Part shown: piece by piece, positions 13,587 to 22,986 of the stretch
How the letters are laid out: each line of letters starts with the position of its first letter
Position numbering within the stretch: the stretch's first letter is position 1
Assembly (NCBI RefSeq): GCF_900460315.1
Contig: NZ_UHIO01000001.1
Span: forward strand, 396,001 to 460,000
From: Veillonella criceti
GTDB lineage: Bacteria > Bacillota > Negativicutes > Veillonellales > Veillonellaceae
Direction: 5' to 3'
DNA length: 64,000 nt
Made by a program: the position numbers and the translations under genes
The notes under the pieces: generated by a model
The model's database searches: none
What the model saw: the letters and a program-made list of their open reading frames with translations, nothing else
Told to the model about the DNA's origin: nothing

Positions 13587-14996
13587 ATGGAAACTAGAAA
13601 GAAAACCTATGTGGAGGATATGGACCGTGGCGTCTATGATATAAAGAATGACTTTGAATATTCTTTTAAATCTGATGCAGGCCTTACGGAAGATATTATC
13701 CGCGAAATTTGGTCTAATAAAAATGAACCGGAATGGATGCTGGACTTCCGTTTAAAATCGTTAAAAATTTACAATGAATTAGATATTCCAACTTGGATTC
13801 CTGATATTAGTGGCCTTGATATGGGCAATATCGTTACCTATGTTAAACCAAAAGTTGACATGAAGGGTGACTGGAATGAAGTACCAGAGGATATTAAGAG
13901 TACTTTTGATCGCTTAGGGATTCCTGAAGCTGAAAAAACATCCTTAGCTGGTGTAGGGGCACAATATGACTCTGAAGTTGTGTATCACAGTATTCAAGAA
14001 GATTTAGTAAAACAAGGGGTTGTATATACCGATATTGAAACAGCTCTTCATGAATATGAAGATATTGTTCGTCAGTATTTTATGACCTTAGTACCGCCAA
14101 CAGATCATAAATTTGCTGCTTTACATGGTGCTGTTTGGTCTGGTGGTTCCTTCGTATATGTGCCAAAAGGAGTGCAAGTTGACATTCCGTTACAGTCCTA
14201 TTTCCGCTTAAATGCGCCAGGGGCTGGTCAGTTTGAACACACCTTGATTATTATTGAAGAAGGCGCTAAAGCTCACTTTATTGAAGGTTGTTCAGCGCCA
14301 AAATATAATGTGGCAAACCTTCATGCTGGTTGTGTTGAATTATTTGTTAAAGATAATGCGACACTTCGTTATTCTACGATTGAAAACTGGTCGAAGAATA
14401 TGTACAACTTAAATACTAAACGTTGTACAGTCGGCAAAAACGGCACGATTGAATGGGTAAGTGGTTCCTTTGGCTCCAAAGTATCTTGCTTATATCCAAT
14501 GAGTATTTTAGCTGGTGAAGGCGCACATTGTGAATTTACCGGTGTTACATTTGCTGGTGAAGGTCAGTTCTTAGATACGGGGGCTAAAGTAGTCCATGTA
14601 GCACCACATACAACATCTAATATTAATTCTAAATCTATTTCTAAGAGTGGTGGCGCTGCTATTTATCGTGGTGTTTTAAATATCGGTAAAAAAGCAGAAC
14701 ATGCAAAAGCTACAGTATCTTGTGAATCTTTGATGTTAGATGAAATTTCTCAATCAGATACGATTCCTTCCATTTCTATTGAAAACGACAACGTAGATTT
14801 AGGTCATGAAGCTAAAATCGGTCGTATTTCAGATGAAGCTATTTTCTACTTAATGACTCGTGGTATTAGTGAAGAAGAAGCACGTGCCATGTTAGTCCGC
14901 GGCTTCGTAGAACCAATTTCTAAAGAATTACCATTGGAATATGCTGTTGAAATGAATAACTTGATTTCCTTAGAGCTTGAAGGCTCTATCGGTTAG
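13587..14996 (+). CDS. sufB: Fe-S cluster assembly scaffold SufB
   Basis: Beta-helix scaffold subunit on which Fe-S clusters are built. 469 residues with the characteristic W-S-G-G-S-F-V-Y-V-P-K-G-V, E-G-C-S-A-P-K-Y and S-G-S-F-G-S-K-V-S-C-L-Y-P segments, and the C-terminal D-L-G-H-E-A-K-I-G-R-I-S-D-E-A-I-F-Y-L region that contacts SufD/SufC. Preceded by a good AGGAGG site. Confidence 0.97.
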   Translation: METRKKTYVEDMDRGVYDIKNDFEYSFKSDAGLTEDIIREIWSNKNEPEWMLDFRLKSLKIYNELDIPTWIPDISGLDMGNIVTYVKPKVDMKGDWNEVPEDIKSTFDRLGIPEAEKTSLAGVGAQYDSEVVYHSIQEDLVKQGVVYTDIETALHEYEDIVRQYFMTLVPPTDHKFAALHGAVWSGGSFVYVPKGVQVDIPLQSYFRLNAPGAGQFEHTLIIIEEGAKAHFIEGCSAPKYNVANLHAGCVELFVKDNATLRYSTIENWSKNMYNLNTKRCTVGKNGTIEWVSGSFGSKVSCLYPMSILAGEGAHCEFTGVTFAGEGQFLDTGAKVVHVAPHTTSNINSKSISKSGGAAIYRGVLNIGKKAEHAKATVSCESLMLDEISQSDTIPSISIENDNVDLGHEAKIGRISDEAIFYLMTRGISEEEARAMLVRGFVEPISKELPLEYAVEMNNLISLELEGSIG

Positions 14997-15005
14997 GAGG
15001 TACTG

Positions 15006-16055
15006 ATGAGTAACGTATTATTTAATGAACTCCCTAGACCTACTTTCCGGTGGTTAAAGGTAAATCATACGGAAGGTGTAGTGGCTACTGGCAATACACC
15101 AGCAGTGGTAACAGTAGAAGCTAATGATGGGGTAGTTACAGAGTTAACGAATAAAGCTTTATTAAAAGCAGATTTTGAAGGTGCTGAAACAACGTCACTA
15201 GCCCTTGTTACTAATGAGTATACAAAAGGGTTGGCAATTAATGTTCCAGCTGGTGCTACTGAAAAAGTAGTTATTACTATTAATGCTGAAGGAGCTAGTG
15301 TAGGTGATAAAACTCGTCTAGCTATCGATGTAGCAAAAGATGCTTCTTTAGACGTATTATATGTAGTTAAAGGAGAGGCTACCGAAGGGGGCTTAAATTT
15401 ATTAACTGAAGTTAATGCAGAAGAGAATGCTAATGTAGTTTTCAAAAAAGTCCAGCTATTAAGTGACGGTGTGCAACAAATTGAGCATCGTTACACGAAA
15501 TTAGCGGCTAATAGTCATGTAGAATTTCTAAATGTTGAGCTAGGTGGCGGTGAAAACTTCTTACATTACACGCAAGATTTAGTCGGTAAAGAAGCGCATA
15601 TTGAACATGATTTAGCGTACTTAGGTGATAATGAACAACGCTTCGATATTTCTATGCTTATGTCTCATGTGGCTCCAAAGTCGGTTAGTGATATTCATGT
15701 ATTAGGGGCTTTAGCTGATAATTCTAAAAAATCTTTCCGTGGTACTTTAGACTTTATCCGTGGCAGTATAGCTGCTGAAGGGGCCGAAGAAGATACTTGT
15801 GTATTGCTTGATCCTACTGTAAAATCTGTATCGTTACCATTATTATTGTGTAAAGAAGATAATGTAGTAGGGAATCATGCAGCCAGTGCTGGTCAATTAG
15901 ATAAAACAAAATTGTTCTATTTAATGAGCCGTGGTTTTAGTGAAGATGAAGCAAAACACATTATTGTAGAATCTATGTTACGCCCAGTGATTGATCGACT
16001 TGACAATGCTGAGTTAGAAGACATTGTATTAGCCACTGTACGTGCAAAAATTTAA
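15006..16055 (+). CDS. sufD: Fe-S cluster assembly protein SufD
   Basis: 349 residues, the second beta-helix subunit of SufBC2D. The N-terminal half is diverged and low in recognisable motifs. The C-terminal half is typical, with L-D-F-I-R-G-S, N-H-A-A-S-A-G-Q-L-D-K-T-K-L-F-Y-L-M-S-R-G-F-S-E-D-E-A. It keeps the His-Ala-Ala segment that corresponds to the SufD metal-site region. Nine bases separate it from sufB. Confidence 0.93.
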   Translation: MSNVLFNELPRPTFRWLKVNHTEGVVATGNTPAVVTVEANDGVVTELTNKALLKADFEGAETTSLALVTNEYTKGLAINVPAGATEKVVITINAEGASVGDKTRLAIDVAKDASLDVLYVVKGEATEGGLNLLTEVNAEENANVVFKKVQLLSDGVQQIEHRYTKLAANSHVEFLNVELGGGENFLHYTQDLVGKEAHIEHDLAYLGDNEQRFDISMLMSHVAPKSVSDIHVLGALADNSKKSFRGTLDFIRGSIAAEGAEEDTCVLLDPTVKSVSLPLLLCKEDNVVGNHAASAGQLDKTKLFYLMSRGFSEDEAKHIIVESMLRPVIDRLDNAELEDIVLATVRAKI

Positions 16056-16093
16056 TTTGTACATACGATGAGATTGAATAGAGAAGGTGTATT

Positions 16094-17323
16094 ATGAAGT
16101 CAGTTGCAGAAGCATATAAAGATTTTCCCATATTACAAAGAGAGCATAAAGGTCACCGCTTAGTATATTTAGATAGTGGGGCTACTACACAAATTCCAAA
16201 TGATGTGATTAATGCGCTTGAAACCCATCTAAAACAGCATAATGGTAACCCTCATCGAGGCGCTCATATATTGGCTGTAGAAGCTTCTGAAGCCTATGAG
16301 ACAGCTCGTGATGCTGTACAGCGTTTTATTAATGCTAAAACACGTGAAGAAATTGTGTTAACTCGTAATACGACGGAAAGTTTAAATTTAATTGCCTTTA
16401 GCTACGGCTTACATAACCTAAAAAAAGGCGATAAAATTGTCATTACTATTGCCGAACATCATGCCAATTTAGTCACTTGGCAACGTGTTGCTCAAACTAC
16501 GGGTGCTACATTAGAATATATGTATTTAGATGAGTCAGGTCATTTAAAAGATGGCGAAATGGATAAAATTGATAGTCAGACTAAAATTGTATCCTTTGCT
16601 CATGTAAGTAATGTATTAGGCATGGAGTTTCCCGTAGAAGAGTTAATTAAACGAGCTCATGCTGTAGGAGCGATTGCTATTTTAGATGGTGCGCAATCAG
16701 CACCACATAAAAAAATTGATGTACAAGCGCTAGATTGCGATTTCTTTGTATTCTCCGGTCATAAAATGTGTGCCTCTCAAGGTATTGGTGTTATGTATGG
16801 TAAACGCCATCTATTAGAAGATATGCCACCATTCTTATTAGGCGGTGACATGATTGAATATGTACAGGAACAAAGCACTACCTACAATGAAGTCCCTTAT
16901 AAATTTGAAGCTGGTACACCAAATGCTCATGGAGCTGTTACACTTAAAGCGGCTATCGAATACTTAGAACAATATGGTATGGATGCTATTAATGCTTATG
17001 AAAAAGAATTAGTATCTTATGTATTGCCAAAATTGTTGGCTATTCCTCATGTTCACGTATTAGGTTCTGAAGATTCAAGTGAAAAACATGGCGTAATTGC
17101 TTTTATGATTGACGATGTTCATCCTCATGACGTAGCTACTATTTTAGATAGTTATGGCGTTTGTATTCGTTCGGGACATCACTGTGCGCAACCATTAGGG
17201 GCATATTACAATGTGCCAGCATCGAGTCGTTTAAGCATGTATATTTACACTCGTAAAGAAGATTTAGATATTTTCTTAGAGGCAGTAAAGCAAGTCCGCC
17301 CAACTATGGGATTTAAAGACTAA
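16094..17323 (+). CDS. sufS: Cysteine desulfurase SufS
   Basis: PLP enzyme that removes sulfur from cysteine and forms a persulfide for Fe-S assembly. The PLP lysine lies in S-G-H-K-M-C-A-S, the catalytic cysteine in R-S-G-H-H-C-A-Q-P-L-G, and the class V aminotransferase motif N-T-T-E-S-L-N-L near residue 95. 409 residues is typical of SufS (group II). It is followed by its sulfur acceptor SufU. Confidence 0.97.
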   Translation: MKSVAEAYKDFPILQREHKGHRLVYLDSGATTQIPNDVINALETHLKQHNGNPHRGAHILAVEASEAYETARDAVQRFINAKTREEIVLTRNTTESLNLIAFSYGLHNLKKGDKIVITIAEHHANLVTWQRVAQTTGATLEYMYLDESGHLKDGEMDKIDSQTKIVSFAHVSNVLGMEFPVEELIKRAHAVGAIAILDGAQSAPHKKIDVQALDCDFFVFSGHKMCASQGIGVMYGKRHLLEDMPPFLLGGDMIEYVQEQSTTYNEVPYKFEAGTPNAHGAVTLKAAIEYLEQYGMDAINAYEKELVSYVLPKLLAIPHVHVLGSEDSSEKHGVIAFMIDDVHPHDVATILDSYGVCIRSGHHCAQPLGAYYNVPASSRLSMYIYTRKEDLDIFLEAVKQVRPTMGFKD

Positions 17324-17384
17324 ATACACCATATCCCTAAGTATTAACTAAGGGGAAATAGCTAGTAAAAAGGAGTTCTTACTT

Positions 17385-17819
17385 ATGGAAATGGATCAGT
17401 TATATACTGAGTTAATTTTAGAACATAATCAAGATAAACGAAATAAACGCTTATTAGATGTGTTTACAGTTTCTGAACATGGTCATAATCCAAGTTGTGG
17501 CGATGATTTAACGTTACAATTAGATGTAGAGAATGGGGTAGTAAAAGATGCTGCTTATACAGGTTCTGGTTGTGCCATTAGTCAAGCATCGGCCTCTATG
17601 ATGATAGATATTGTAAAAGGTAAATCTGTAGAAGAAGCGTTTCGTTTAGTTGATATCTTCTTAGGTATGATAAAAAAAGAAGTGACTGATGAAGCTGAAT
17701 TAGAAGAGTTAGAAGATGCGATTGCACTCCAGAACATTTCTAATATGCCAGCTCGTGTAAAATGTGCCGTATTAGCATGGCATACATTGAAAGAAGCACT
17801 CAAAAAAGAAAATGCTTAA
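17385..17819 (+). CDS. sufU: Zinc-dependent sulfurtransferase SufU
   Basis: 144 residues. SufU accepts sulfur from SufS by zinc-ligand exchange and passes it to SufBCD. The three cysteines of the zinc site are in N-P-S-C-G-D-D, G-S-G-C-A-I-S-Q-A-S and V-K-C-A-V-L-A-W; the Asp after the first Cys completes the site. The insertion between the second and third Cys distinguishes SufU from IscU. Confidence 0.96.
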   Translation: MEMDQLYTELILEHNQDKRNKRLLDVFTVSEHGHNPSCGDDLTLQLDVENGVVKDAAYTGSGCAISQASASMMIDIVKGKSVEEAFRLVDIFLGMIKKEVTDEAELEELEDAIALQNISNMPARVKCAVLAWHTLKEALKKENA

Positions 17820-17852
17820 TACCTAGTTGATTTAAATTGAATCATGTATAAT

Positions 17853-17903
17853 AAAAGGAGTTAACCAATAACAACCAAGTTGCTATGAGTTAACTCCTTT
17901 TTT
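17853..17903. terminator. Bidirectional terminator between sufU and the BFD-like gene
   Basis: AAAAGGAGTTAAC (17853-17865) is perfectly complementary to GTTAACTCCTTTT (17889-17901). T runs flank it on both strands, so it can serve the convergent genes on either side. Confidence 0.85.
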
Positions 17904-17924
17904 ACAAAGCCTATAGAGAATGAA

Positions 17925-18176
17925 TTAATCTTCTTTTTTGGCACCAGGCTTTGGTAATTTGCCCATATCTTGTAGTAGTTTTACTATGCGGACACCACAA
18001 TTCTTGCCACCGCAAGATCCTGTGCCAGCGCCTGTACGTTCTCGAATTTTAGGAATTGTATCACAACCATCATTGATAGCTTCCTTAATCGTTTTGCGAG
18101 AAATGCTACGACAAGTGCAGACTTTAGTATATTTATCTAAGATACTGTCTGGTACTTTTTGTTCTTCGAAATCCAT
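17925..18176 (-). CDS. BFD-like [2Fe-2S]-binding protein
   Basis: 83 residues. Four cysteines follow the BFD-type (bacterioferritin-associated ferredoxin) pattern: C-T-C near residue 20, then G-S-C-G-G-K-N-C near 54-59, with the helical A-I-N-D-G-C-D-T-I-P-K-I-R-E-R-T-G-A-G-T-G between. Such small proteins transfer electrons or release iron from ferritin, but this one is too short to assign a partner. It is convergent with the suf operon and divergent from a HAD phosphatase gene. Start ATG 18176 follows GGGAGG. Confidence 0.8.
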   Translation of the reverse strand: MDFEEQKVPDSILDKYTKVCTCRSISRKTIKEAINDGCDTIPKIRERTGAGTGSCGGKNCGVRIVKLLQDMGKLPKPGAKKED

Positions 18177-18188
18177 ACTATTACCTCC

Positions 18189-18206
18189 CTATACTACTTA
18201 GTATAG
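18189..18206. promoter_or_regulatory. Perfect 18-bp palindromic operator candidate
   Basis: CTATACTA-CT-TAGTATAG (8-bp arms, 2-bp centre) sits between the divergent BFD-like and HAD genes, 13 bases upstream of the BFD-like start codon and next to its ribosome site. It contains a TATACT hexamer on each strand, so it may be an operator or overlapping -10 elements. Confidence 0.45.
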
Positions 18207-18271
18207 CTATTAATATAATATATTGTACCATAGATTTATCATTCTATGTATAGTTAAGAAAGGATTAACTT

Positions 18272-18949
18272 ATGATTTGTGTTTTATTTGATTTAGATGG
18301 CACGTTAACTGACTCTGCAGAAGGTATTAAAAAATCTGTAGTATATGCACTAGAGAAAAAAGGAGTACCCGTACCTGCTGATGATATTCTTACTTTATTT
18401 ATAGGGCCCCCTATTGTAGACTCCTTGCGTGAGCATTGTGGCATGACAGAGGCTGAAGCTGAAGAAACATATGGCTATTTTAAGGAACGTTATCATACAA
18501 TTGGTAAATTTGAAAATAAAGTTTATAAAGATGTGGAGAGCATGTTAGTAACATTGCGACAAACAAATACGTATGTAGCCGTTGCAACGGCTAAACCAGA
18601 ACCTTTAGCGAAAGAGGTGCTAGAACATTTTGGTTTAACTAAGTATTTTGAAATTATCAAAGGCGCTGATACTGCACGGGGAATGGTGCATAAAGAGGAT
18701 ATTTTAAAAGAAGCTTTAAACGATATGAAAGAGATTTCATCAAATCGTACGAAAAAAGAAATTACTGGTTGGTACATGGTAGGGGATCGTAAATATGATA
18801 TGGAAGCTGCTAAAAAATTAGGTTGTCGTGCTGTAGCGGTTACCTACGGCTACGGTACCCAAGAAGAGTTAGAGGCTGCAGGCGCTGATTATATTTGTCA
18901 TACACCATCTGATGTAATTTTAAATATTGCTGTAGATACTTTGTTATAA
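18272..18949 (+). CDS. HAD-superfamily phosphatase (phosphoglycolate phosphatase-like)
   Basis: 225 residues. HAD motif I is F-D-L-D-G-T-L-T-D-S with the nucleophile Asp, motif II lies in A-V-A-T-A-K-P, and motif IV is M-V-G-D-R-K-Y-D-M-E-A-A. A four-helix cap domain spans about residues 15-80, including the G-P-P-I-V-D-S-L motif of the Gph/YcjU-like subfamily. The substrate is probably a small phosphate ester such as 2-phosphoglycolate or a nucleotide, but sequence alone does not decide this. Confidence 0.88.
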   Translation: MICVLFDLDGTLTDSAEGIKKSVVYALEKKGVPVPADDILTLFIGPPIVDSLREHCGMTEAEAEETYGYFKERYHTIGKFENKVYKDVESMLVTLRQTNTYVAVATAKPEPLAKEVLEHFGLTKYFEIIKGADTARGMVHKEDILKEALNDMKEISSNRTKKEITGWYMVGDRKYDMEAAKKLGCRAVAVTYGYGTQEELEAAGADYICHTPSDVILNIAVDTLL

Positions 18950-18950
18950 T

Positions 18951-18996
18951 AAAAGACTATCCTTCTAGGTATATGACTTAGAAGGATAGTCTTTTA
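18951..18996 (+). terminator. Terminator after the HAD phosphatase
   Basis: A perfect 17-bp stem pairs 18951-18967 with 18979-18995, with an 11-base loop and A/T-rich flanks on both sides. It may also stop transcripts from the minus strand. Confidence 0.88.
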
Positions 18997-19073
18997 TAAA
19001 TTACATAGTTAAATGGGGGCTTAAGATTACAGGTTTTACACCAATACTGATTATTAGGGATTTTGCACTGAGA

Positions 19074-19589
19074 TTAATCAAGCGGTTGTTGATGACGGTT
19101 TTTCTTAGAAATCACTTTAAATACTTTAGCGCCTGTAGATTTTAATTTGGTACCAGTTTGTTGTAAACGCATGCGCGTGCGTGTTACACGAGCTAAAGCG
19201 GATAAGGATGTTTTTTTACGTGGTTTCATATCGCGAATGGATCCAAAATCACCACGATTAATACTGGTTGCTTTTACTCGTTCAGCTCCAAACGATTGTT
19301 TTAAAACACGCATAATTAAGGTTGCTTGTAGTGGATTATTAAAGGTATAAATATCGACAGCTACATAGCCCATATCAGGATACGCATGGACGGCAATATG
19401 ACAATGAGGAGACACAGCGAATAACACAACTTCATCATCTAAGACTTGGCAACTAATTTCATCAATTGGCTGTTGTGCAGCCTCTAAGGCATTAGTTACG
19501 CTTTCTTGAATAATAAGCGGTGAGTCCATAACATCTTCCAAACAAGTATATAAATCAATAAGTAAATGGGTTCCAACTGAATTAGCCAC
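19074..19589 (-). CDS. S-adenosylmethionine decarboxylase homologue lacking the pyruvoyl serine
   Basis: 171 residues from GTG 19589, chosen because AAGGAAGG lies 7-8 bases upstream (an in-frame TTG at 19616 lacks a site). Residues 1-110 align with class 1B AdoMetDC: G-T-H-L-L-I-D-L-Y-T-C at the start and H-I-A-V-H-A-Y-P-D-M-G-Y-V-A-V-D-I-Y-T at 64-82. In active enzymes the segment reads S-E-S-H-L-x-I-H and ends F/Y-T-C-G. Here Glu62-Ser63 is His62-Cys63 and the catalytic Cys83 is Phe83; His68 is kept. A strongly basic C-terminal extension (about 115-171) is absent from the known enzyme. It is probably not a normal AdoMet decarboxylase; no spermidine synthase gene is nearby. Confidence 0.7.
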   Translation of the reverse strand: MANSVGTHLLIDLYTCLEDVMDSPLIIQESVTNALEAAQQPIDEISCQVLDDEVVLFAVSPHCHIAVHAYPDMGYVAVDIYTFNNPLQATLIMRVLKQSFGAERVKATSINRGDFGSIRDMKPRKKTSLSALARVTRTRMRLQQTGTKLKSTGAKVFKVISKKNRHQQPLD

Positions 19590-20044
19590 AATGACACCTT
19601 CCTTATATAATATCAATTAATAGGGGATTACTTTTACATAGAAAGATAGAATCTACTAGATAAATAGTAATCCTTTGATGAAAATCAATAGTGATTTATA
19701 AACAACATATAAGATATGAGTTTTAAGTATTTATATATCATATTATTATACCGTGAACTGTCATAATTGTAAAACATCAAATATATTTTTTAATTTAAAA
19801 CTACTAATATTTTAAATATATAGTTTTTATTTTACTTAATGACTCTTCAAAATATAATTGATAAATATGTAGTGTTTATAAGGGTTTATAAGTTTTGTTG
19901 AGAAAATTTATTAATTAGATAAATAATGAGTTTAACGAATTAATGAAGCTCAAAATATAAAATTTATTCAATTCGTGTAATAATTTATGAGAACATAATT
20001 ATCATTTTATTATTTTCTTAGGGATTTAGAGCATATAGAATACA

Positions 20045-20061
20045 TATGACTATAGGTCATA
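20045..20061. promoter_or_regulatory. Candidate operator upstream of dld
   Basis: TATGAC-TATAG-GTCATA is a perfect inverted repeat with 6-bp arms. It ends 13 bases before the -35 element of the dld promoter, a position suited to an activator or repressor. Confidence 0.4.
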
Positions 20062-20074
20062 GACTTTTCCTCAA

Positions 20075-20103
20075 TTTACATGATTACTTCAGTATGCTAT
20101 TCT
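20075..20103 (+). promoter_or_regulatory. dld promoter
   Basis: TTTACA (20075-20080), 17 bases, TATTCT (20098-20103), with TGC directly before the -10 (extended -10). It is 63 bases upstream of the dld start. Confidence 0.6.
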
Positions 20104-20166
20104 AAGTTTATATTAAACCGTACTGTCGTGCTGAGTGGCGCAACAATAGGTAGGAGGTCCTAACAA

Positions 20167-22986
20167 ATGAGCATACAATTGAAACGTGATTTTGATACTT
20201 TTGTATCAGAAGCCAAAAAGATTTCACCCAATCGAGTATTTACTGATTATTTATTGCGCTATGCATATGGGGTAGATGCCTCTTGCTATAGCTATTTACC
20301 AAAAGTTGTTGTTAAAGCAAATACAGAAGCTGAAGTCATTCAATTGGTGTTATTAGCAAATCGCTGTGGTACACCAGTTACCTTCCGAGCAGCTGGTAGT
20401 TCTTTATCAGGACAATGTTCTTCTGAAGATGTACTTATTGTCGCTAATGATGGTTTTAAATTTGCACAAGTCTTAGAAAATGGTAATGCCATTCGTTTGG
20501 CTTGTGGCGTTATTGGTGCTGATGCCAATGAGGCTTTGGCGCCATTTGGTAAAAAAATTGGTCCTGACCCAGCAACAATTACTACTGCTTTAGTAGGCGG
20601 TATTTTTAACAATAACTCTAGTGGTATGTGTTGTGGTACCGCTCAGAACTCGTATAAAACAGTTCGTTCTATGCGCGTTGTCTTAGCTGATGGCACTGTA
20701 CTAGATACAGGTGATGATCAAAGCGTGAATGACTTCATGCGTACCCATGGCAAAATGGTAGAAGATATCCTTAATTTACGAAGCGATATCATGGCAGATA
20801 ATGAATTAGTTGATTTAATTAACCGTAAATACAAAATTAAAAATACAACAGGCTATGGGATTAACTCCTTAGTTGATTTTGAAAACATTGTAGATATTTT
20901 AAATCATTTATTTATCGGTAGTGAAGGGACTTTGGGGTTTGTAAGTGAAGTTACCTATAACTGTGTTGATGATGCTAAATTTAAAGGTTGCGGTCTTTTA
21001 TTCTTTGAAAAATTAAATGATGCTTCGCGTGCCGTTGTTGCCTTAGCTAATATGTCACGTGAAAAGGTAGTGGCTGCTGAAATGATGGACTATTTAAGTC
21101 TTAAGAGTGTACAACAATTACCAGAAGTACCATCTTTTGTACGTGGCGTGCCAGAGGGAACAAGCTGTATCTTATTCCAATCGGAAAGTAATGATGAAGC
21201 TACTTTAGACCAAAACTTAGAATATATTAAAGAACATTTAAAAGATATCCCAACGGTAATTCCAAGTCTATATTCTAAAGAGGCTTCGGAATATAATTCC
21301 TGGTGGATGATTCGTAAAGGCTTATTACCAATTGCTGCTGGTCTTCGTCGTCCTGGTACTACAGTTATTACTGAAGACGTTTGCTTCAAAATTGAAGACT
21401 TTACTGATGGTATTGAAATGATTACTGAACTATTCCACAAATACGACTTTGTAGATAGTGGTATCATTTTTGGTCATGCCTTAAGTGGTAATGTTCATTT
21501 TATTATCACTCCAGATTTTAATGAACAAAAAGAAATGGATAATTTTGCTGCTCTTGTAAAAGAAATGGCAGAACGGGTAGCTGGGGTAGAAGGCTCTATT
21601 AAAGCTGAACATGGTACAGGTCGTATGGTAGCGCCATTTGTAGAATTAGAATGGGGTAAAAAAGCATATGCTGTAAACCGTCGCATTAAAGAAATTTTTG
21701 ACCCTCAACGACTCCTTAATCCAGATGTTATGATTACTGATGATCCAGACGTTTACAAGAAAAACCTCAAAGCCATGAATGATATTGATCCATTATACAA
21801 TATGTGTATGGAATGTGGCTTCTGTGAAAAGAATTGTCCAAGTCGCAACTTAACCTTAACACCACGTCAACGTATTTCATTACTTCGTGAAGAACAACGC
21901 TTGCTTAAGGAAGGCAATACAGCTATGGCAGCAGAACTTAAAAAAGGGTATGAATACTATGGTGTTGATACGTGTGCTGCTTGTTCCATGTGTTCACAAC
22001 TTTGCCCATTAGGCATTGATACAGCACAAATTGCTATTTCTATGCGTAAAATTGATCCAAAAGGCCGTGGCTTAGCACAAGCGATTTACAATAACTTTAG
22101 CACAACGTTAAAAGCCGCTAAGGTAGGGGTAACCTTAGGTGGTGTAGCTGGTAAGGTTGCTACTAAAACATTATTGGCAAAAATCTCTGAAGATGCTCAT
22201 CAGTTAACTGGTTTAACACCATATTTGCCAAAGACAATGCCTAAAGCTAATACGTATAAATTAAGTAATAAACGAAATCCTTTATTCCAAAAGAATGTAG
22301 TATATTTCAGTACTTGTGCTAACCGTGCATTCCGTCAAAACCAAGGGTATGACGATACTCGTAGCTTGCAACAAGTATTTGAAAGTTTATGCGATAAAGC
22401 AGGGTATAATGTAATCTATCCACCACATATCGAAAATCTTTGCTGTGGCTTGAGTTTCGAAAACTATGAAGAAATTGATAAACAAGCGTTAGCTGATTTA
22501 ACAGAGGCTTTAATGAAAGCTAGTGAAGGTGGTGTTTATCCAGTAGTTATTGACCATTCAGCTTGTTTCAATCATGCCTTCAAACATATTAAAGGTTTAA
22601 AAATTCTTGATATTTCAGAATTCTTGTATACAATTTTACCTGATTTAAATGTAACGAAATGCAATGAATCCGTTATTGTTCATAAACAATGTAAGGTAAA
22701 AACTTTACACAAAGGTGATTATATTGAAAACTTAGCACGTGCATGTACTGATAAAGTATTCAATATTAAATCCTTTGCCTGTGATGGATTTGCTGGTCAA
22801 AAAGGTTTCTTTACACCAGAACTTAATAAATGCGCTACTAAAGACTTAGCTGATGAAATTAAAAGTTATGGCTGTACTTTAGGTGTAAGCTCCAGTTCGA
22901 CTTGTGAAATTGGTCTTGGTGAAAATGGCGGTATTCCATTTGTAAGTATTGCGTACTTATTGGACCGTTGTTCTACAAGAAAATAA
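20167..22986 (+). CDS. dld: FAD/4Fe-4S D-lactate dehydrogenase (Dld-II-like fusion)
   Basis: 939 residues joining three modules. Residues about 40-270 are an FAD_binding_4 domain (F-R-A-A-G-S-S-L-S-G-Q, P-D-P-A-T-I-T-T-A-L-V-G-G). A FAD-oxidase C domain follows to about 520 (G-H-A-L-S-G-N-V-H-F, A-E-H-G-T-G-R-M-V). A GlcF/LldE-like part carries two 4Fe-4S motifs (C-M-E-C-G-F-C-E-K-N-C-P and C-A-A-C-S-M-C-S-Q-L-C-P) and CCG-type domains (L-C-C-G-L-S-F). The layout and length match bacterial Dld-II, which oxidises D-lactate to pyruvate and passes electrons to quinone. Glycolate or another 2-hydroxyacid is the alternative substrate. The AGGAGG ribosome site is strong. In a lactate fermenter this would be a central catabolic enzyme. 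Confidence 0.88.
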   Translation: MSIQLKRDFDTFVSEAKKISPNRVFTDYLLRYAYGVDASCYSYLPKVVVKANTEAEVIQLVLLANRCGTPVTFRAAGSSLSGQCSSEDVLIVANDGFKFAQVLENGNAIRLACGVIGADANEALAPFGKKIGPDPATITTALVGGIFNNNSSGMCCGTAQNSYKTVRSMRVVLADGTVLDTGDDQSVNDFMRTHGKMVEDILNLRSDIMADNELVDLINRKYKIKNTTGYGINSLVDFENIVDILNHLFIGSEGTLGFVSEVTYNCVDDAKFKGCGLLFFEKLNDASRAVVALANMSREKVVAAEMMDYLSLKSVQQLPEVPSFVRGVPEGTSCILFQSESNDEATLDQNLEYIKEHLKDIPTVIPSLYSKEASEYNSWWMIRKGLLPIAAGLRRPGTTVITEDVCFKIEDFTDGIEMITELFHKYDFVDSGIIFGHALSGNVHFIITPDFNEQKEMDNFAALVKEMAERVAGVEGSIKAEHGTGRMVAPFVELEWGKKAYAVNRRIKEIFDPQRLLNPDVMITDDPDVYKKNLKAMNDIDPLYNMCMECGFCEKNCPSRNLTLTPRQRISLLREEQRLLKEGNTAMAAELKKGYEYYGVDTCAACSMCSQLCPLGIDTAQIAISMRKIDPKGRGLAQAIYNNFSTTLKAAKVGVTLGGVAGKVATKTLLAKISEDAHQLTGLTPYLPKTMPKANTYKLSNKRNPLFQKNVVYFSTCANRAFRQNQGYDDTRSLQQVFESLCDKAGYNVIYPPHIENLCCGLSFENYEEIDKQALADLTEALMKASEGGVYPVVIDHSACFNHAFKHIKGLKILDISEFLYTILPDLNVTKCNESVIVHKQCKVKTLHKGDYIENLARACTDKVFNIKSFACDGFAGQKGFFTPELNKCATKDLADEIKSYGCTLGVSSSSTCEIGLGENGGIPFVSIAYLLDRCSTRK

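Follow-up and report, generated by a model that had tools for sequence, protein, structure and literature searches.

The window, by which we mean the whole stretch of 64,000 nucleotides analyzed here, contains a gene whose product is probably a pseudoenzyme derived from the AdoMet decarboxylase (AdoMetDC) SpeD. The protein has kept the fold of this enzyme and carries a basic C-terminal tail, through which its conserved work would be done. It very probably neither processes itself nor decarboxylates any substrate; this judgment is based on the sequence.

Results

The gene and its surroundings

The gene is read on the minus strand from 19589 to 19074, a point on which the earlier note was silent; the plus strand of 19074-19589 is crowded with stop codons. 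It begins with a GTG codon at 19589, which is preceded by a AAGGAAGG-like Shine-Dalgarno sequence, ends with a stop codon at 19076-19074 and encodes 171 amino acids. The features of the gene are collected in Table 1. The candidate promoter precedes the GTG by about 155 nt; the scan from which it comes found 13 sites in the region versus 8.8 ± 2.8 expected. A search of Rfam gave no match in positions 17800-20300 around the gene.

Table 1. Positions in the window of the tail-protein gene, of the parts of its product and of a possible promoter.
Feature	Positions	Strand	Basis
Whole gene, probable SpeD-like pseudoenzyme with basic tail	19074..19589	(-)	Open reading frame, Shine-Dalgarno sequence, PF02675, class-wide conservation
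AdoMetDC-fold core, residues 1-113	19251..19589	(-)	AlphaFold2 and structure match
H62-C63-H64, aligned with the E-S-H self-cleavage site	19398..19406	(-)	Gapless alignment to 1tlu/1tmi
F83, in place of the catalytic Cys83	19341..19343	(-)	Alignment to 1tlu/1tmi
Conserved basic C-terminal module, residues 114-171	19077..19250	(-)	(RG)DFGxxDMKP, then basic predicted helical segment 131-165
Possible promoter, TTTACA-17-TATAAT	19745..19773	(-)	Consensus scan only, 11/12 matches

Two other genes in this region may be mentioned. A divergent gene on the plus strand (20167-22986) encodes a fusion of 939 amino acids, which reads like an FAD-linked oxidase joined to a ferredoxin-type Fe-S part and a CCG-rich, heterodisulfide-reductase-like part; the gap between this gene and that of the tail protein is AT-rich and about 550 bp long. 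The minus strand at 17925-18176 encodes a small Cys-rich protein of 83 amino acids (CTC...GSCGGKNCG), which by eye resembles a BFD-type [2Fe-2S] protein. Its gene follows the SUF cluster (13587-17819) downstream, in antisense orientation.

The core has the AdoMetDC fold and lacks catalytic residues

Residues 8-113 of the protein match Pfam PF02675 with 77 bits (E 1.8e-21; gathering score 25). The score against the adenosylmethionine decarboxylase equivalog of NCBIfam, TIGR03330, is 66.3 bits, which is under the curated cut-off of 75.65. A phmmer alignment to the AdoMetDC of T. maritima (1tlu/1tmi) runs with no gaps through the active site. This alignment confirms what the earlier note had read from the sequence, namely an AdoMetDC homolog in which His62-Cys63 stand for Glu62-Ser63 and Phe83 stands for Cys83, with His68 kept; His64 is retained as well. 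Residue 70 is a Tyr and not the Trp, which is invariant in the tail-less homologs. In the AlphaFold2 model most of the core has a pLDDT above 90, and the model matches the structure of the T. maritima enzyme (1TLU) with a Z score of 19.6 and an rmsd of 2.1 over 115 residues. Hence the PF02675 domain, His68 and the predicted fold are features that the protein has in common with class 1B AdoMetDCs; Glu62-Ser63, Cys83, Trp70 and a score above the TIGR03330 cut-off are missing.

The tail-bearing proteins form one clade with a variable active site

Of 300 sampled Negativicutes genomes, 283 (94%) contain the tail protein; a few genomes lack the gene altogether (G073, G152). No tail module was found outside the Negativicutes in the sample. 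The homologs from other classes of the phylum end at model position 113-122 of 162; their frames are mostly about 125-135 amino acids long and have no tail. For comparison we used 140 tail-bearing members and 25 tail-less class 1B proteins, five of which are from Negativicutes that carry both kinds. A tail-less canonical class 1B SpeD occurs in addition to the tail protein in some Negativicutes (L222-L226; genomes G109, G129, G061, G168 and G141); most of these genomes also have a class 1A SpeD, which is absent from G061.

The tail-bearing proteins are found on one side of a branch with an SH-aLRT support of 96, in a tree that was built without the columns of residues 63 and 83. All 25 tail-less homologs have E62-S63-H64-H68-W70-P71-C83. 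In the tail clade (n=140), residue 63 is Ser in 46 members, Gly in 44, Cys in 17, Phe in 14, Ala in 11, Thr in 6, and Val and His in one each. Residue 83 is Cys in 69 and Phe in 61 members, with other residues in the remainder. At position 70, 137/140 have Tyr or Phe, and none has Trp. The fewest changes on the tree are 13 between Ser63 and other residues, 4 between Cys63 and others and 9 between Cys83 and others; these counts are approximate, since the tree is a quick one with weak inner branches. The earlier note had asked whether tail and H-C-H motif are conserved in a clade of a PF02675 tree; this holds for the tail, which is conserved in one clade, and fails for the H-C-H motif, which is not clade-wide. 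The motif and Phe83 are common to all seven species of the genus that were examined, and they occur also in a second genus. A Ser in close relatives, which the earlier note had taken as the mark of a simple mutation, was not found within the genus and the family; Ser63 is seen in other families of the order, without Glu62 and Cys83. One member from a distant Negativicutes family (L150, genome G092) has H62-C63-H64 with Cys83 kept, which represents a convergent Cys63.

The residues in question bear on the idea that the protein is a decarboxylase with a new function, which would obtain its cofactor from Cys63 via a thioester, or from another residue, and act on Arg, Orn, Lys or some other substrate. 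Li et al. found such enzymes by looking for genomes with two SpeD homologs (PMC10407285), His68 is kept and a Cys could, on chemical reasoning, in principle join in an N-to-S acyl shift. Yet Cys63 is not conserved, Glu62 and Cys83 are lost together with Ser63, and it is S63, H68 and C83 that are required for self-processing and catalysis (PMC10407285), which makes this explanation highly improbable. The cysteine-derived cofactor of the earlier note finds no support either; Cys63 is one of eight residues seen at this site and arose about four times on the tree, and the site holds Phe or Thr in the sister genera and Gly in whole families. A decarboxylase function may still hold for a part of the clade, since 25 of 139 members keep the complete catalytic set among the residues examined, Trp70 excepted. 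Because of these members, an enzymatic ancestor or a still-active subgroup is likely.

The basic C-terminal module is conserved

The extension of the window protein (residues 114-171) comprises 58 amino acids with 16 K/R versus 3 D/E, in agreement with the basic extension of about 55 residues in the earlier note. It contains the (RG)DFGxxDMKP motif and the basic C-terminal segment, as in the rest of the Negativicutes tail clade. In this clade R112, D120, M121 and P123 reach a weighted conservation of 96-100%, compared to 57% for S63 and 71% for C83; the tail columns with 96-100% identity span about 30 families. The net charge of the tail has a median of +10 and a minimum of +5 over all members. 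A tail-clade homolog with a scrambled C-terminus is found at L227 (genome G139); it looks like a frameshift, i.e. an assembly error or a pseudogene.

AlphaFold2 predicts a C-terminal helix at 131-165 with low confidence (pLDDT about 57-68). The hydrophobic moment of the best 18-residue window in the tail exceeds that of most shuffles in 30/31 families, with the reservation that related sequences are not independent. The amphipathicity of the window protein's own tail is not above that of shuffles (p = 0.18). With a modest signal across the family and no significant one in the window protein, an amphipathic membrane helix was rejected as an explanation of the tail. A sequence search with the tail alone against solved structures gave no match.

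The charge of at least +5 in every member would suit a protein that binds nucleic acids or the ribosome, in which the basic tail sits on RNA or DNA, with dimerization as the sole task of the SpeD core, perhaps in order to pass the polyamine level on to translation or transcription. It also fits this idea that loss of pocket residues is tolerated and loss of the tail is not. We consider it nonetheless somewhat unlikely, because the tail has no sequence similarity to any solved structure and because the hydrophobic side of the segment, which is present in most families, suits a membrane or a protein groove equally well.

The tail protein persists without SpeD and SpeE

The genome of the window encodes a second PF02675 protein, an E. 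coli-type class 1A SpeD (436 bits; KSH and TCG motifs; G000:C1:1830970-1831707), and it also has SpeE. The normal step of AdoMet decarboxylation is thus covered elsewhere in this genome, by the class 1A enzyme. Going by its number, the gene Vpar_0438, for which down-regulation in coaggregation has been reported, more likely encodes the class 1A SpeD than the tail protein. A different combination occurs in the complete genome G039 (L044), which has SpeE and no class 1A SpeD; here the tail protein, which has Ala63 and Phe83, is the only one with a PF02675 domain.

Over the class, the class 1A SpeD was found in 187/300 genomes versus 283/300 for the tail protein. Twelve genomes, which are 92-100% complete, have neither class 1A SpeD nor SpeE, and all of them retain the tail protein. 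Residue 63 is Gly in 11 of these and Val in one. Several have also lost H68, Y70 or C83, with the (RGDFG)xxDMKP motif and the basic tail mostly intact; in G104, for example, H68 is lost and the RGDFG-DMKP motif is still there. The persistence of the protein in these near-complete genomes argues against AdoMet decarboxylation, and also against an obligate activation of SpeD in the manner of a prozyme, as the conserved role of the family.

The same data bear on a prozyme-like regulator, that is a dead paralog which binds its cell's own class 1A SpeD and activates (or inhibits) it. An active SpeD does stand beside a dead paralog in the window genome, as it does in almost all of the Veillonellales that were examined, and the trypanosomatid prozyme with its AdoMetDC is a precedent (PMC5201418). 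But a regulator of this kind is improbable for a protein that at least 12 near-complete genomes have kept in the absence of class 1A SpeD and SpeE and that is so much more frequent than its presumed partner; moreover, the cores of class 1A and class 1B are distant from one another, and the prozyme has no counterpart of the tail. Three observations give good support to the proposal of the earlier note that the protein has lost decarboxylase activity and gained another role: the loss of Ser63, Glu62, Cys83 and Trp70, the presence of an intact class 1A SpeD in the genome, and the occurrence of the family in genomes that have neither SpeD nor SpeE.

The gene is under selection and has no constant partner

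Pairwise dN/dS values in the Veillonellaceae are 0.02-0.11; they are rough values, since dS is mostly >1. The open frame is intact in all but one of the 140 tail members. Judged from these ratios, the gene is under strong purifying selection and is not decaying. A redundant, functionless SpeD copy, which has been drifting since the class 1A enzyme took over, could account for the many losses of catalytic residues, for the absence of the gene from G073 and G152 and for the disrupted tail frame of the L227 copy; in view of the dN/dS values, the open frames, the near-identical tail columns across about 30 families and the presence in 94% of the genomes of the class, it is extremely improbable. 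Sequencing error, local mutation or chance are likewise excluded as sources of the unusual residues, which are identical in the seven congeners and the second genus and go together with the low dN/dS.

Roughly half of the loci examined (L035, L036, L038, L041, L043, L051 and others) have the genes ctsR-mcsA-mcsB-clpC near the tail gene, from which they are transcribed divergently. An operon partner as a clue to function was rejected, as the neighbors vary by family and ctsR-mcsA-mcsB-clpC points away from the gene; no conserved operon partner that indicates a pathway was found in the loci examined. An exact-consensus scan for a CtsR operator by the tail gene gave one site only, in L142, and this lies beyond other genes. 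Several of the tail-gene loci adjoin an apparent rRNA operon.

Discussion

The explanation that we favor, a SpeD-derived pseudoenzyme, can be put as a sequence of events. In one ancestor in the Negativicutes a class 1B AdoMetDC-type core was joined to the conserved basic C-terminal module. In the descendants the self-processing Ser63 and its partners were lost repeatedly and the tail module stayed; the sequences show both steps. The window protein, with H62-C63, F83 and Y70, would be one of the inactivated forms.

AdoMetDCs are dimeric β-sandwich proteins. The pseudoenzyme, too, is probably folded as a β-sandwich, presumably as a dimer, with the tail as the part that does the conserved work. 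More tentatively, the tail might consist of the DMKP turn and a basic, weakly amphipathic helix, which anchors the dimer to an anionic surface; as this surface the inner face of the membrane is slightly favored over RNA or DNA. The old active-site pocket, in which H64, H68, Y70 and D79 are kept, may have become a sensor for a small ligand such as a polyamine or a nucleoside. That these parts make up a class-wide regulator or docking protein specific to the Negativicutes, in which the pocket senses a ligand (e.g. a polyamine) and the basic tail controls a trait peculiar to these diderm Firmicutes, for example their polyamine-modified envelope or translation, seems to us unlikely. The peptidoglycan of Negativicutes carries putrescine and cadaverine (PMC10628300), so that a regulator which is related to polyamines and restricted to this class would merit attention, if true.

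The findings matter for annotation. Proteins of the tail clade are prone to be annotated as AdoMet decarboxylases; most of those examined lack residues on which formation of the cofactor depends, and predictions of a spermidine pathway from them would therefore be wrong. The family is present almost throughout a class to which such common oral and gut bacteria as Veillonella, Megasphaera and Dialister belong. We seem to be dealing with an enzyme family that turned into a non-enzyme repeatedly and retained an added module.

Dead proteins with the AdoMetDC fold and neofunctionalized active SpeDs are already known. Our literature search found no description of a Veillonella or Negativicutes SpeD of the tail-bearing type, nor of a SpeD lineage that spans a class, bears a tail, has been inactivated repeatedly and is maintained in genomes without SpeD and SpeE. 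Among the closest known systems is the class 1B AdoMetDC (SpeD, PF02675/TIGR03330; T. maritima 1TLU, B. subtilis type), with which the window protein shares the fold, a gapless core and H64, H68, P71, Y75 and D79; it differs in that it is without Glu62, Ser63, Trp70 and Cys83 and has the extra basic module past residue 113. The N-terminal domain of human spermine synthase functions in dimerization. This domain (3C6K) has an AdoMetDC-like fold (Z 12.0) without decarboxylase chemistry and is a precedent for the use of the fold as a scaffold; unlike the window protein, it is fused to an aminopropyltransferase and has no basic DMKP tail. SpeDA and SpeDC are neofunctionalized SpeD decarboxylases, i.e. 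pyruvoyl enzymes that keep S63, H68 and C83 (PMC10407285). They resemble the window protein as second SpeD homologs beside a bona fide SpeD, with the same fold and a new role; in contrast to them, the window protein has C63 and F83 and has lost the processing site, and a tail is not described for them (PMC10407285). Catalytically dead proteins with the AdoMetDC fold, like the window protein, are the trypanosomatid prozyme (PMC5201418) and the C-terminal SpeD domain of the Victivallis SpeD fusions (PMC10407285). These two accompany an active AdoMetDC, whereas the tail family persists also in genomes without SpeD and SpeE.
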